From positions 1-54,625 of the forward strand of contig JAKLKY010000007.1 in the NCBI GenBank assembly GCA_023150415.1: 54,625 bases of DNA. Direction: 5' to 3'. The position numbers and the translations under genes are program-made. The notes below the pieces were generated by a model. That model was given only the letters and a program-made list of their open reading frames with translations. It made no database searches and was not told the origin of the DNA. Below, in pieces: positions 26,562-30,865 of this stretch (position 1 is its first letter; each line of letters begins with the position of its first letter). Origin of the DNA: Alphaproteobacteria bacterium. Lineage in GTDB: Bacteria; Pseudomonadota; Alphaproteobacteria; Micavibrionales; Micavibrionaceae.

Positions 26562-27833
26562 TCACACGGCCTTGAATACCACACTGGCATTCGTGCCGCC
26601 GAAGCCAAAGGAGTTGGACAGCGCAGCGCGGATTTTCTTTTCCTTGGCCTTGAGGGGGACAAGGTCGATGCCCTGGCAATCCTCGGATACGTTCTCCAGA
26701 TTGAGCGTCGGTGGCATCAGGCCGCTCTGCATGGCCTTGATCGTGTAGATCGCTTCCACCGCGCCCGCCGCGCCCAGCAAATGGCCGATCGCCGATTTGG
26801 TGGAAGACATGGAGATTTTATCCAGCACCGTTGCGAACAGGCGCCTGACGGCCTTGCATTCGATCCCATCGCCCAGCGGCGTCGACGTGCCGTGCGCGTT
26901 GATATAGTCGATATCCTCGGGGTTCATCTTCGCGCGCTTCAGTGCGGCTTGCATGGCGCGGAAACCGCCGCTGCCATCTTCGGACGGTGATGTAATGTGA
27001 TACGCATCGCCTGACAGGCCATAGCCCACGATTTCGGCGTAAATCTTGGCGCCGCGCTTTTTCGCGTGCTCATATTCTTCCAACACCACAACGCCGGACC
27101 CTTCGGCGATCACGAATCCGTCCCGGTCCTTGTCAAAGGGTCGTGATGCGCGTTCCGGTGAATCGTTAAAGCCGGTCGACAGGGCGCGCGCGGCGGCAAA
27201 GCCTGCAACACCGATGCGGCAGACGGCGGCTTCGGCGCCGCCCGCGACCATCACATCGGCATCATCAAGCGCGATGAGCCGCGCTGCATCGCCAATTGCA
27301 TGGGTACCCGTGGCGCAGGCCGTCACGACGGAATGATTGGGTCCGCGAAAACCATATTTGATCGAAACATGGCCGCTGGTCAGATTGATCAGCGCAGCCG
27401 GCACGAAAAACGGCGAAATGCGGCGCGGGCCTTTTTCATTCATTAGGGTGGAGGTCTGATAAATCTCCTCCAGCCCGCCAATGCCCGAACCAATCATCAC
27501 GCCCGTGCGGTCAAGCGATTGTTCATCGGTGGGTTTCCAACCGGAATCCTCGACGGCCTCCTGTGCGGCGGCGATGGCGTAGGTGATGAACGCATCCATC
27601 TTGCGCTGGTCTTTGGGTGGCACGAACAGATCGACATTGAACAGTCCGTTCTGAGGCGCGGGATCGCTGCTGCGCGGGATGACACCCGCCACGTGCGATG
27701 AAATGCCTTCAAGATCGAAATGCGCGATTTTGCTGATGCCGCTGCGGCCTGCCGTCAACGCATGCCAATTGTAGTCGACGCCGAAACCAAGCGGCGAAAC
27801 AATTCCCATGCCTGTGATGACCACGCGTCTCAT
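26562..27833 (-). CDS. fabF: 3-oxoacyl-ACP synthase II
   Basis: Condenses malonyl-ACP with acyl-ACP during fatty-acid elongation. The 423-residue protein has the Cys-His-His triad of KAS I/II: Cys in VVTACATGTHAIG near 172, His in NAHGTSTPLGD near 312 and His in KSAIGHLLGAAGAVE near 350, and ends with the glycine-rich FGFGGTNAS. Length is about 10 residues over the usual 413. It follows acpP on the minus strand across 147 bases that hold a large palindrome, an unusual separation for a pair that is normally close. Confidence 0.95.
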   Translation of the reverse strand: MRRVVITGMGIVSPLGFGVDYNWHALTAGRSGISKIAHFDLEGISSHVAGVIPRSSDPAPQNGLFNVDLFVPPKDQRKMDAFITYAIAAAQEAVEDSGWKPTDEQSLDRTGVMIGSGIGGLEEIYQTSTLMNEKGPRRISPFFVPAALINLTSGHVSIKYGFRGPNHSVVTACATGTHAIGDAARLIALDDADVMVAGGAEAAVCRIGVAGFAAARALSTGFNDSPERASRPFDKDRDGFVIAEGSGVVVLEEYEHAKKRGAKIYAEIVGYGLSGDAYHITSPSEDGSGGFRAMQAALKRAKMNPEDIDYINAHGTSTPLGDGIECKAVRRLFATVLDKISMSSTKSAIGHLLGAAGAVEAIYTIKAMQSGLMPPTLNLENVSEDCQGIDLVPLKAKEKKIRAALSNSFGFGGTNASVVFKAV

Positions 27834-27855
27834 AACATTAACCTGCCAAAATTAT

Positions 27856-27970
27856 TTCACCACAAAGCCACAAAGAACACAAAGAATCACAAAGGATAAT
27901 TTAACGCTGATATATGCGTTGTTATAATCTTCTTTGTGTCACTTTGTGTTCTTTGTGACTTTGTGGTGAA
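27856..27970. repeat. 115-base palindrome of CACAAAG units
   Basis: Left arm 27856-27894 and right arm 27932-27970 are inverted copies, about 35 of 39 positions matching. Each arm carries four (A)CACAAAG words at 9-10 base spacing. The loop contains an inner hairpin, AACGC at 27903-27907 and GCGTT at 27916-27920, so the whole element can fold as one long hairpin. It sits between acpP and fabF. It has no coding capacity and resembles dispersed palindromic intergenic elements; a shorter relative is at 47619-47677. Confidence 0.85.
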
Positions 27971-27980
27971 TAAAAATTTT

Positions 27981-28220
27981 TTAACCCTTGGCGTTTTGCT
28001 TGATGAAGTTGATGGCGTCGCCGACAGTTTGAATTTTTTCGGCCGCGTCATCGGGAATTTCCACCCCGAATTCTTCTTCAAACGCCATGACCAGCTCAAC
28101 CGTGTCCAGCGAGTCTGCGCCCAGATCGTCGATAAAGCTAGCGCCTTCGGCCACTTTGCCTTCATCAACACCCAGATGTTCAACCACGATTTTCTTTACG
28201 CGTTCGGCGATGTCACTCAT
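27981..28220 (-). CDS. acpP: Acyl carrier protein
   Basis: 79 residues, strongly acidic, matching bacterial ACP throughout. The 4'-phosphopantetheine attachment Ser is S37 in [20 protein letters not shown]. It carries the growing acyl chain for all fab enzymes. Start [11 protein letters not shown] and end [10 protein letters not shown] are as in close relatives. A candidate promoter of its own lies at 28265-28292, as is usual because ACP is needed in large excess. fabG is upstream, fabF downstream beyond the palindrome. Confidence 0.97.
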
Positions 28221-28264
28221 TTGAATGGTATCCTCTTATTGGTTGTCTTTTAACGTGAACCCGA

Positions 28265-28292
28265 AATGTAGCGATCTTTATTTTGAATGCAA
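28265..28292 (-). promoter_or_regulatory. Candidate acpP promoter
   Basis: On the minus strand, TTGCAT (28292-28287) and TACATT (28270-28265) are separated by 16 bases. The start would be near 28258, giving a leader of about 38 bases. The match is moderate, but a separate promoter between fabG and acpP would be expected. Confidence 0.4.
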
Positions 28293-28335
28293 GGAAATTT
28301 TATCTTTCCTTACAAATGTCTTTCATATCATCACG

Positions 28336-29073
28336 TTAGATCATCGCCAACCCGCCATTCACATGCAGGGTCTGGCCGGTGACGTAGGCGGCCTCATTGC
28401 TGGCGAGGTAGAGCGCGGCGGCGGCGATATCCTCGGAACTACCCATCCGCCCGGCTGGGATATTCGCGGTAATGCGGTTTTTCTGATCGTCGTTGAGCTT
28501 GTCCGTCATGGCCGTGGCGATAAAGCCTGGGGCGATGCAATTCACAGTTACATTGCGGCTGGCGATTTCCTGCGCCATTGCCTTGGACCAGCCTATCATC
28601 CCCGCTTTCGAGGCCACATAATTGCACTGGCCCGGATTGCCTGTCACGCCGACGACGGAGGCAATGTTGATAATGCGGCCCCAGCGCTGCTTCATCATGA
28701 ATTTCAACGCGACCTGCGCCAGCTTGAAGGGGACGGAAAGATTCACGTCGATGACCTCTTGCCATTCCTCATCCTTCATGCGCAGGGAGAGGTTATCGCG
28801 CGTCAGGCCCGCGTTGTTGACCAGAATGTCCAGCCCGCCCATGGTTTTTTCGGCCTGTTCGATCAGAGCGATTGCGGCGGCAGGGGTGGAAAGATCAGCC
28901 GGCAGGATAAAGGCGCGTTCGCCCAGTTCATTTTTCAAGGCTTGTAACTTCTCCTCATTTCGTCCGGACAGGCCCACGATTGCGCCTCGCGCATGCAAAG
29001 CTTTCGCAAGTGCGCCGCCGATGCCGCCCGTCGCGCCTGTAATCAATGCTTTTTTCCCAGATAAATCAAACAT
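28336..29073 (-). CDS. fabG: 3-oxoacyl-ACP reductase
   Basis: Reduces 3-oxoacyl-ACP with NADPH in fatty-acid elongation. I use ATG 29073 (245 residues), which has AGAGGA 10 bases upstream and gives the usual MFDLSGKKALITGATGGIG start; an in-frame ATG at 29106 adds 11 non-conserved residues. The Rossmann motif TGATGGIG is at residues 13-20, NNAG near 87, catalytic Ser in NIASVVG near 137 and YVASKAG with the catalytic Tyr-Lys near 150. It ends with TLHVNGGLAMI as usual. fabD lies upstream on the same strand but is separated by a gene on the opposite strand. Confidence 0.95.
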   Translation of the reverse strand: MFDLSGKKALITGATGGIGGALAKALHARGAIVGLSGRNEEKLQALKNELGERAFILPADLSTPAAAIALIEQAEKTMGGLDILVNNAGLTRDNLSLRMKDEEWQEVIDVNLSVPFKLAQVALKFMMKQRWGRIINIASVVGVTGNPGQCNYVASKAGMIGWSKAMAQEIASRNVTVNCIAPGFIATAMTDKLNDDQKNRITANIPAGRMGSSEDIAAAALYLASNEAAYVTGQTLHVNGGLAMI

Positions 29074-29301
29074 TTGCTCTAATCCTCTCTTTTTTCTTGC
29101 ATTCAAAGCCCTGCCTGGTTTATTGAGCCTTATTCAAAAAAAAGCAAGCGGTCCCCTTATTTTCATATTTTTACTAAAATTTAAGGTGAAACCGATAGGA
29201 TAAAAGAAGTCTAAAATTAAATATAAAAGCCAGACAAACGGCGGGTGTAAAAAATAAATTGTGTGGGGAGATCCTGGCAAAAGCTGGGGAAAGGGTTGTG
29301 T

Positions 29302-29694
29302 ATGTCATTAACCACCATAGAGCCGCAAGCGCAGCTTGAGCCGCATATCACGGTTGACCAGGCCGTGCTGTCGCAAATCGTCGCCGGGTTCGAGCCAGAG
29401 ACGATCGGCGTACCCCATGCCTGGGCTGAGCTTTATCTGGCCTGTCAGGCGGCTGATGCGTCGCATAATCTTCTGCGGGCGATTCATGATGTGAAGGAAG
29501 CAGCCGAAGATGCGCAAGCCTTGCGGGGGGATAAAGTACCTTTGCCGTTTTCCGTGGTGAATGAGCTGCGCGATCAGGGGCCAGCCTTGCGGATTATCGC
29601 GCTGCAATACCGTCAGGCAGGGCATGCTCTGGCTGCGAATGCGCTGGAGACCGCAACCGATCAGATTAAGGAATCACTGCCTGATTTATTTTAA
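29302..29694 (+). CDS. Hypothetical protein, 130 aa, between fabG and fabD
   Basis: I do not recognise the family. ATG 29302 is preceded by AAAGGG; the frame opens earlier (29263) without a better start. The product is a soluble, largely helical protein of 130 residues rich in Ala, Leu and Gln: PHAWAELYLACQAADASHNLLRAIHDVKEAAEDAQALRG and a second helical half AGHALAANALETATDQIKE. No signal peptide or metal motif. It lies on the plus strand between two minus-strand fab genes and its last 9 bases overlap the end of fabD. The 228 bases before it hold nothing that I can name. Confidence 0.65.
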   Translation: MSLTTIEPQAQLEPHITVDQAVLSQIVAGFEPETIGVPHAWAELYLACQAADASHNLLRAIHDVKEAAEDAQALRGDKVPLPFSVVNELRDQGPALRIIALQYRQAGHALAANALETATDQIKESLPDLF

Positions 29695-30630
29695 GGTGTT
29701 GATCAAGGCTTCGATATCTTCAGGCGTTTCCGCATTCAGACACTGAATATCCTTATCGATCCGGCGCACCAGGCCACAGAGCACCTTACCGGCGCCAAAC
29801 TCGATCATTTGCCCGACGTCTTGTTCTTTCATCCACAGCACGGATTCACGCCAGCGCACCTGACCTGTTACCTGTGCTACAAGCAGATCACGGATCCGCG
29901 CTGAATCCGTTTCGGCTTGCGCCGTCACATTCGCAACCACGGGAACGGACGGCGCGCGCAGATCAATCGCTGCCAGCGCCTCTTTCATTTCGTGCGCCGC
30001 GGGTTCCATTAAGCTGCAGTGAAATGGCGCGCTGACGGGTAACAATACGGCACGTTTCGCCCCGCGCGTCGAGGCCAGTGCGATGGCGGCCTCTACAGCT
30101 TCTTTATGGCCGCTGATGACAACCTGCCCCACGGAGTTGTCATTGGCAACTTGACAAACCAGTGTCCCGGCGGCATCGCGCGCAAGGGCCTGCACCTCTT
30201 CCAAAGAGGGGCCCAGAATGGCCGCCATGGCGCCAATCCCGGGTGCGACGGCGCGTTGCATCGCTTGGCCGCGCAGTTTAAGGACCCGCGCCGCATCGCT
30301 CAGGCTGAGCGCGCCGGCGGCGGTCAGGGCCGTGTATTCGCCCAGCGAATGCCCCGCGACGTATTGCGCATGGCTGGCAACCGTGATTCCCGCCTGTTTT
30401 TGCAGCACTGCCATCACGGCCATTGATGCGGCCATCAACGCAGGCTGTGCGTTTTCAGTAAGGGTGAGATCTTCTTCCGGCCCTTGTGCCATCAGGCGCG
30501 AGAGATTTTGGTTCAGCGCATCATCCACCTGTTCCAGCACTTCGCGCGCTTCAGCGAAGGTTTGTGCAATGGCTTGGGCCATACCAACGTATTGTGATCC
30601 CTGTCCGGGAAACATCATGCAGCGTTTCAT
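29686..30630 (-). CDS. fabD: Malonyl-CoA:ACP transacylase
   Basis: Transfers malonyl from CoA to acyl carrier protein. I use ATG 30630 (314 residues, the usual length), giving the conserved MFPGQGSQYVGM start; the upstream in-frame ATG at 30678 adds a non-conserved stretch. The active-site Ser is in GHSLGEYTAL near residue 93, an Arg in LKLRGQAMQ near 118, and the His in APFHCSLM near 202. It heads the fab block on the minus strand (fabD, fabG, acpP, fabF, mltG), interrupted by the orphan at 29302. Confidence 0.95.
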   Translation of the reverse strand: MKRCMMFPGQGSQYVGMAQAIAQTFAEAREVLEQVDDALNQNLSRLMAQGPEEDLTLTENAQPALMAASMAVMAVLQKQAGITVASHAQYVAGHSLGEYTALTAAGALSLSDAARVLKLRGQAMQRAVAPGIGAMAAILGPSLEEVQALARDAAGTLVCQVANDNSVGQVVISGHKEAVEAAIALASTRGAKRAVLLPVSAPFHCSLMEPAAHEMKEALAAIDLRAPSVPVVANVTAQAETDSARIRDLLVAQVTGQVRWRESVLWMKEQDVGQMIEFGAGKVLCGLVRRIDKDIQCLNAETPEDIEALINTLK

Positions 30631-30865
30631 ATCCGGCTTTCTAGCTGAAAAAGTGCATTTTTTAAACACAAAAAGCAATAATAATATTATTATATTCGTG
30701 GCCTTAAATATAACTTCATAGAAACATTTTGGTCATAAAGGTAAAAAAGTTGCATATTTTACTGAGGCGTGTTAGATTGATTCGATCACAAAAAGACGTG
30801 TTGCGTGTGTGGGTTTCATGTTCTGGATTGTGTTGTAACCCTTAGTATTTTAGGAGGATGATCAA

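Follow-up and report, generated by a model that had tools for sequence, protein, structure and literature searches.

What is a 115-base palindrome doing inside the fab operon of an alphaproteobacterium, and is it peculiar to this locus or one member of a larger class? The window, meaning the whole stretch of DNA analysed here, comprises 54,625 nucleotides of contig JAKLKY010000007.1 from a draft genome of the Micavibrionaceae (GCA_023150415.1). The palindrome occupies positions 27856-27970 and contains no gene. It sits in the 147-bp gap between acpP (acyl carrier protein, 27981-28220), its upstream operon neighbour, and fabF (ketoacyl-ACP synthase II, 26562-27833), its downstream one, as a preliminary description of this DNA had placed it. 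Both genes lie on the minus strand, as do a fabG-like reductase (28336-29106) and a fabD-like malonyltransferase (29686-30678) that form the operon context; gene names throughout are readings of the translations unless a record's annotation is cited.

We favour, with a probability of roughly 0.6, the reading that the palindrome is a gene-less, MITE-like element of a class bounded by inverted arrays of 7-base words, the GxxExxY system. The class is widespread in bacteria and apparently undescribed. No description of the word arrays was found in the open literature (subscription journals and preprints lay outside the search), nor, in those parts of the same literature that were openly accessible, any link between GxxExxY (TIGR04256 / PF13366) and repeats.

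Architecture of the palindrome

The element begins with TTCACC and ends with GGTGAA. The inverted repeat consists of two 50-nt arms (27856-27905 and 27921-27970) that are 84% complementary, with 15 nt between them. Each arm opens with TTCAC, followed by four inward-running CACAAAG words spaced 1, 2 and 3 bases apart. On the left (27856-27894, plus strand) the words start at 27861, 27869, 27878 and 27888 and are separated by C, AA and AAT. The right arm (27932-27970) repeats this design on the minus strand, with words starting at 27932, 27942, 27951 and 27959 and the spacers T, AA and TGA, so that the palindrome holds eight words. The 37-base loop enclosed by these word arrays (27895-27931) carries a small AACGC/GCGTT hairpin and no gene.

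The predicted RNA fold of the palindrome has an energy of -62.1 kcal/mol, while shuffled sequences averaged -19.8 (z -13.3), and none of 200 shuffles was as stable. It consists of a long outer stem, an inner stem of CACAAAG words and the small loop hairpin. The preliminary description had recognised a 115-base palindrome, 39-base arms of CACAAAG words, a hairpin in the loop and a very stable RNA stem. Each of these was confirmed, the 39-base arms as the outer, word-bearing parts of the 50-nt arms and the stability as a prediction. The loop also holds a promoter-like pair on the plus strand (27901-27928: TTAACG, 16 nt, TATAAT, with TG before the second element), a consensus match only, at 10 of 12 positions, which is directed against the fab operon.

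Since acpP and fabF are expected to differ in expression, a stem-loop between them could be a factor-independent terminator or attenuator. Intrinsic terminators are defined by a G+C-rich stem followed by a U-run, and the palindrome does not have this form: read in the fab direction, the stem is followed at once by ATAATTTTGG, with no U-run, and no terminator-like site was found in 27700-28350 (shuffles gave a mean of 0.7). Termination is a very improbable function, and the earlier suggestion that the hairpin might stop RNA is not supported.

GxxExxY genes between inverted word arrays

The window's genome is a draft of 1.92 Mb in 96 contigs, 92.5% complete. Within it, both the palindrome sequence and the pair pattern of CACAAAG arrays are single-copy and confined to the window. 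A degenerate three-word pattern that admits sister words (CACCAAG, CGCAGAG and others) gave 27 matches against 1 for the reversed control, and 197 against 11 across six genomes. The preliminary description had looked to dispersed copies as the mark of a repeat family; the exact CACAAAG array is unique in this draft, whereas the class, judged by the 27 matches, is repeated. A partner arm scoring over 30 was present in 5 of 14 regions around other arrays of this genome, three of the five being short gene-less palindromes, and no GxxExxY frame was found around any of the 14. On contig C48 (L410), one CACCAAG array occurs at 667, 1501 and 2335, in exact 834-bp steps near the contig end, which may be a tandem duplication or an assembly effect.

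When one genome per species was scanned for three CACAAAG words with gaps of 1-4 bases, at least 118 stretches matched. Among the matches listed, records came from Bacteroidetes, Chloroflexi, Planctomycetes, Cyanobacteria (Symploca, Calothrix), Alpha-, Gamma- and Deltaproteobacteria, Acidobacteria, Spirochaetes and others, and many stretches read TTnACCACAAAGnCACAAAGnnCACAAAG, then a loop, then back. Among the 118 listed, 51 had a partner arm within about 200 bp and 5 had a GxxExxY frame less than 600 bp away (1 of them also with a partner arm); 63 had neither by these criteria. Viral contigs contained 79 stretches of triple CACAAAG arrays. No match to the window palindrome itself was found by blastn in plasmids and E. 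coli genomes, and by eye the acpP-fabF gap of 24 other relatives (19-177 bp) held no such array (5 of 30 loci were not located). One CACAAAG palindrome, in Zavarzinella formosa (L117), has outer flanks that form a perfect inverted repeat, accaaaaggcatca / tgatgccttttggt, as if it had been inserted in a hairpin, or extended.

CACAAAG arrays are associated with GxxExxY genes. Of 20 genomes that carry arrays, 17 had a GxxExxY (TIGR04256) match over the cut-off, compared with 0 of 14 controls. Among 299 Pseudomonadota, 22 genomes had the CACAAAG pattern and none had its reversed control; GxxExxY was present in 17 of the 22 carriers against 40 of the 277 others. Outside one large family (f35, membership counted by hand) the figures were 4 of 6 carriers against 8 of 219 others (p 7e-5); for f35 itself the difference, 13 of 16 against 32 of 58, was not significant (p 0.08). 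The five carriers of the 22 in which GxxExxY was not over the cut-off count against the preferred reading.

The GxxExxY genes are themselves flanked by inverted arrays of one word, which differs by gene: CACAAAG, CACAGAG, CACCGAG, CACGACG, CGCAAAG, CGCAGAG, CACAGAT, CGCGGAT and more. To score the arms, the two 250-bp flanks of a gene were aligned locally, one of them as its reverse complement, with a threshold score of >30; in both GxxExxY samples, as in the four-helix-bundle and plasmid sets described below, flanks were measured from the profile or protein match and not from start codons. The threshold was exceeded by the arm pairs of 57 of 68 genes, compared with 94 of 1360 mismatched pairs and 3 of 410 random 350-bp spans. 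By origin, the 57 comprised 25 of 29 genes from array-carrying genomes and, for the window's genome together with its relatives, 32 of 39. A second sample, from Pseudomonadota, gave 19 of 28 genes against 168 of 756 mismatched pairs, a control that is strict because many mismatched pairs have words in common. One of 69 genes in the first sample (short flanks) and 2 of 30 in the second were dropped before these counts. The first 30 loci come from genomes chosen for their CACAAAG arrays and are for the most part the top-scoring ones among the matches listed. Arrays played no part in choosing the relatives' and phylum sets, but there too most loci are top-scoring ones.

Plasmids searched with one query protein yielded GxxExxY in only 8 of 72,556 records, so the gene does not look like a plasmid hitchhiker; four of the eight had arms over score 30. 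None was confirmed in viral contigs, again sought with one protein. Genes with no arm pair over the threshold (11 of 68, 9 of 28 and 4 of 8 plasmid-borne) weigh against our preferred reading. Several GxxExxY matches in six genomes (G067, G063, G070, G075, G125 and G237) are fragmentary or contain stop codons, possibly a sign of rapid turnover.

Gene-carrying elements with the palindrome's own word were found in relatives. L172 (genome G004) and L188 (G001), whose proteins are sisters (99% SH-aLRT), have four CACAAAG words at 1-2-3 spacing in both arms, although some words deviate by one or two letters. G001 also holds the gene-less palindromes L013 and L010: L013 has four words spaced 1-2-3 in both arms, like the window palindrome, and L010 is spaced 1-2-3 in one arm and 1-4 in the other, which counts against the preferred reading. 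The window palindrome consists of two inverted arrays of one CRCNNAK-type word with the word-specific spacing of gene-carrying members. The word and the 1-2-3 spacing that it has in common with L172 and L188 thus indicate that the window copy belongs to the GxxExxY heptad-arm class. This class has two forms, with and without a gene, and coded ends.

The window's genome has two GxxExxY genes, one with CACTAAG arms, between gatC and gatA, and one with CACAG.G arms. A CACAAAG-type gene in the same genome would be expected of an active system but does not define the class. None was found in this 92.5% complete draft, which again counts against the preferred reading; the relatives G001 and G004 have this type.

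Words, spacings and protein lineage

All three GxxExxY proteins tested matched PF13366 (PDDEXK_3), of the PD-(D/E)XK superfamily. Residues invariant in nine diverse sequences include G26, G28, E31, Y34, D71, E81, K83 and Q95, which we take to be the motif set of RecB-type nucleases. PADLOC gave only a weak match (E 0.00026), a PDB sequence search found no convincing relative (best E 0.15), and the AlphaFold2 model from a 6-row alignment (pLDDT 52.7) was too weak for a fold search.

The word at the ends is coupled to the lineage of the protein between them. Open reading frames with the motif G.G..E..Y numbered 98, or 94 after removal of duplicates and short flanks, and 59 of these were labelled as having at least three CRCNNAK words; CACGACG, CGCAACG and CACAG.G thus lie outside the tree test. 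On the resulting 59-protein tree the word labels needed 30 changes against 43.1 when shuffled (0 of 200 shuffles as low), and word position 7 (G or T; T in 14 of 59) needed only 2. Linked inheritance alone could produce this signal. Residues that separate G from T at position 7 were set aside as confounded by phylogeny, given the two changes on the tree.

Word class is likewise coupled to spacing. Among 150 matches listed of the 197, the mutual information was 1.15 against 0.33 when shuffled (0 of 2000 as high), in a test whose rows overlap and pair up and which treats linked rows as independent. In the same 150, CACCAAG was spaced 1-1 in 16 of 22 cases, CACTAAG 1-3 in 8 of 9, CGCAGAG 1-2 in 8 of 8, CACGAAG 2-2 in 12 of 20 and T-ending words 3-3 in 30 of 43. 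Both arms of gene-carrying elements had equal spacing in 27 of 30 readable cases, a hand-picked part of the degenerate-pattern rows.

Between the two arms of an element, words are conserved and spacers are not. Across 55 elements, words mismatched at 46 of 1020 positions (4.5%) and spacers at 60 of 167 (36%; p 5e-28), in a count that took one arm's words by pattern and so is biased at word positions 1, 2, 3, 6 and 7; at the free positions, mismatches numbered 5 of 146 (position 5) and 26 of 146 (position 4), against the same 60 of 167 in spacers. Selection on the stem would not spare the words only, and word recognition is therefore favoured over the hairpin. Recognition of the words by a protein would fit the sequence comparison best. 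Across the class, selection probably acts on more than the hairpin itself.

These counts bear directly on the possibility of an RNA device, in which a stem in the polycistronic mRNA would be cut by RNase III or would shield the acpP message, as with the intervening sequences (IVS) of 23S rRNA, and would be kept for that reason. The stem of the palindrome is very stable, and passages of one report describe cutting of a Coxiella IVS by RNase III in vitro (PMC4990558). The 36% mismatch in spacers but not in words argues against such a device, as does the lack of a significant excess of wobble-preserving transitions between arms (70 vs 50, p 0.08). In addition, no RNA family model approached its gathering score (the best, a miRNA precursor model, gave 37.1 bits where 90 are required), and membership of the palindrome in a known RNA family is not supported. 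Overall, we regard an RNA device as improbable.

GxxExxY may instead be cargo, because another protein family has its own kind of arms. Genes of TIGR02436, four-helix-bundle proteins that we take to be the family of the rRNA intervening sequences, lie between inverted heptad arrays of another word class: the score exceeded 30 for 16 of 30 genes and for 9 of 870 mismatched pairs. The 7-base words at these 30 loci (L420-L449) run head to tail and include GTTAAAG, AGTTGCA, GTGAAAA and others. In the window's genome, CGCAGAG arms about 660 bp apart (L409, 622-1334 on contig C71) flank a 219-aa frame with no Pfam match, a third kind of cargo. Such cases, and the CACAAAG arrays in the 5 of 22 carrier genomes noted above, would suit a mere passenger: the arrays would spread by host enzymes, by replication slippage and recombination, or by a transposase in trans, and several small proteins would ride inside. 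A passenger role is nevertheless unlikely in our judgement, in that the word tracks the GxxExxY lineage, gene-carrying and gene-less copies have word and spacing in common, and the GxxExxY and four-helix-bundle families use different word classes.

Genomic locations and comparison with known elements

Gene-carrying members of the class are found at junctions of co-directional genes, many of them core genes. Where both neighbours were called, the gene and its neighbours lay on one strand in 30 of 38 elements and at 20 of 28 independent sites. At the 23 sites with co-directional neighbours, the gene pointed in their direction at 20 (p 0.0005). Six annotated plasmid records also had GxxExxY and both neighbours on one strand, 3 of the 6 with arms over the threshold. 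Co-stranded sites, including those on plasmids, also speak for the RNA device considered above. As to the orientation of gene-less palindromes, both neighbours were called in just 9 of 30. In relatives, gene-less CACAAAG palindromes lie at pdhA|pdhB, rpsL|rpsG and bioB|bioF, and pdhA|pdhB is also the site of the gene-carrying L167 (G002) and L183 (G019), the proteins of which do not form a sister pair in the phylogeny (88 and 81% support for the groupings).

Elements are present or absent at orthologous junctions. In a survey of trpD|trpC in 23 genomes of one genus, 3 of them without a usable locus, 14 of the 20 loci were occupied by an insert of about 470-630 bp, 4 were empty and 2 were short or ambiguous. 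In the four empty loci the trpD stop overlaps the trpC start. By eye, ATGA flanks both sides at 8 of the 14 occupied sites, where it also supplies stop and start. A search of 31 gene-less palindromes for target-site duplications found none (72 combinations, best z 2.4), a result that counts against the preferred reading. The fabD-fabG-acpP-fabF operon of Sphingomonas parapaucimobilis (NZ_CP155749.1) carries an annotated GxxExxY with CGCGAAG arms between fabD and fabG, and the matching fabD-fabG stretch of S. paeninsulae (NZ_CP032828.1) is about 460 bp shorter. Similarly, Bacteroides finegoldii (NZ_OY725952.1) has GxxExxY with CACAGAG-type arms after radA, a site at which Parabacteroides distasonis (NZ_OY725753.1) is about 460 bp shorter. 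The preliminary suggestion of a mobile palindromic element is supported in so far as the arm type recurs across phyla and in the operons of relatives and has gene-carrying counterparts. The uniqueness that the preliminary description had named as refuting it holds for the exact word in the window's own draft genome but not for the class.

Nearest in behaviour are the rRNA intervening sequences and the REP/RAYT pairs, and the window element lacks the defining features of both: location and ORF for the former, tag and enzyme for the latter. The passages of PMC4990558 on IVS describe stem ends and an S23 ORF, in small elements whose complementary ends enclose a loop with an ORF and which occur sporadically in a transcribed region, and treat their origin and mobility as unexplained. 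The GxxExxY class resembles them in that its elements are small, sporadic and inserted in transcribed regions, and in that complementary ends surround an ORF. It differs in lying between protein genes instead of in rRNA, in typically encoding a PD-(D/E)XK-family protein and in having arms composed of word arrays that follow a spacing rule. The palindrome between acpP and fabF has only a 37-base loop without an ORF, and TIGR02436 was not found in its genome.

REP/RAYT systems pair extragenic palindromes with a dedicated enzyme gene flanked by such repeats, as described in PMC3733652, and the GxxExxY class does the same with an enzyme of another superfamily, no tag motif, greater length and heptad arms with a word code. 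An extragenic palindrome between co-directional genes, the position of many REPs (PMC3733652), would be explained if it were a REP, or another kind of repeat, mobilised by a Y1 (RAYT/IS200-type) transposase. The element is 115 bp long instead of 20-40 bp, ends in TTCACC and by eye has no GTAG/CGTC end tag. Moreover, 5 of the 16 genomes searched, namely the window's 92.5% complete draft, G002, G004, G028 and G029, had no Y1_Tnp match, and these five hold word arrays or GxxExxY genes. We give a Y1-mobilised repeat hardly any credence. In line with MITEs, gene-less copies have ends in common with gene-carrying copies. The class may differ from MITEs and their parent transposons in that no transposase is known for it, its parent encoding a small PD-(D/E)XK-family, putatively nuclease-like protein, and in that no target-site duplication was found in the 31 gene-less copies.

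Under the preferred reading of a gene-less member of the GxxExxY class, the protein carried by gene-bearing members (TIGR04256 / PF13366 PDDEXK_3) would bind the word arrays as element ends. It would then cut or join DNA at those ends, moving or copying the element, and gene-less copies like the window palindrome would possibly be spread in trans by a protein of matching word. Alternatively, the same protein might act by homing into conserved junctions. A role of a PD-(D/E)XK protein in transposition has a precedent in TnsA of Tn7; no transposition was seen here, which counts against the preferred reading.

A broader proposal, which we put forward tentatively and at somewhat less than even odds, is that these elements are an unrecognised kind of mobile element in many phyla. 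A PD-(D/E)XK protein would read a heptad code of word and spacing at both ends, word and protein would co-diversify, core-operon junctions would be favoured or tolerated, and gene-less palindromes would spread in trans. The four-helix-bundle protein of the intervening sequences would be a parallel branch with its own words. If true, the scattered palindromes of many phyla would be one system with a readable end code, and GxxExxY, a common protein family without a role, would gain one. About a dozen natural word variants (13 labelled) would be at hand for studying how a PD-(D/E)XK protein might read DNA. The parallel four-helix-bundle branch would explain the origin of intervening sequences, and the old question of where those of rRNA come from would become testable.
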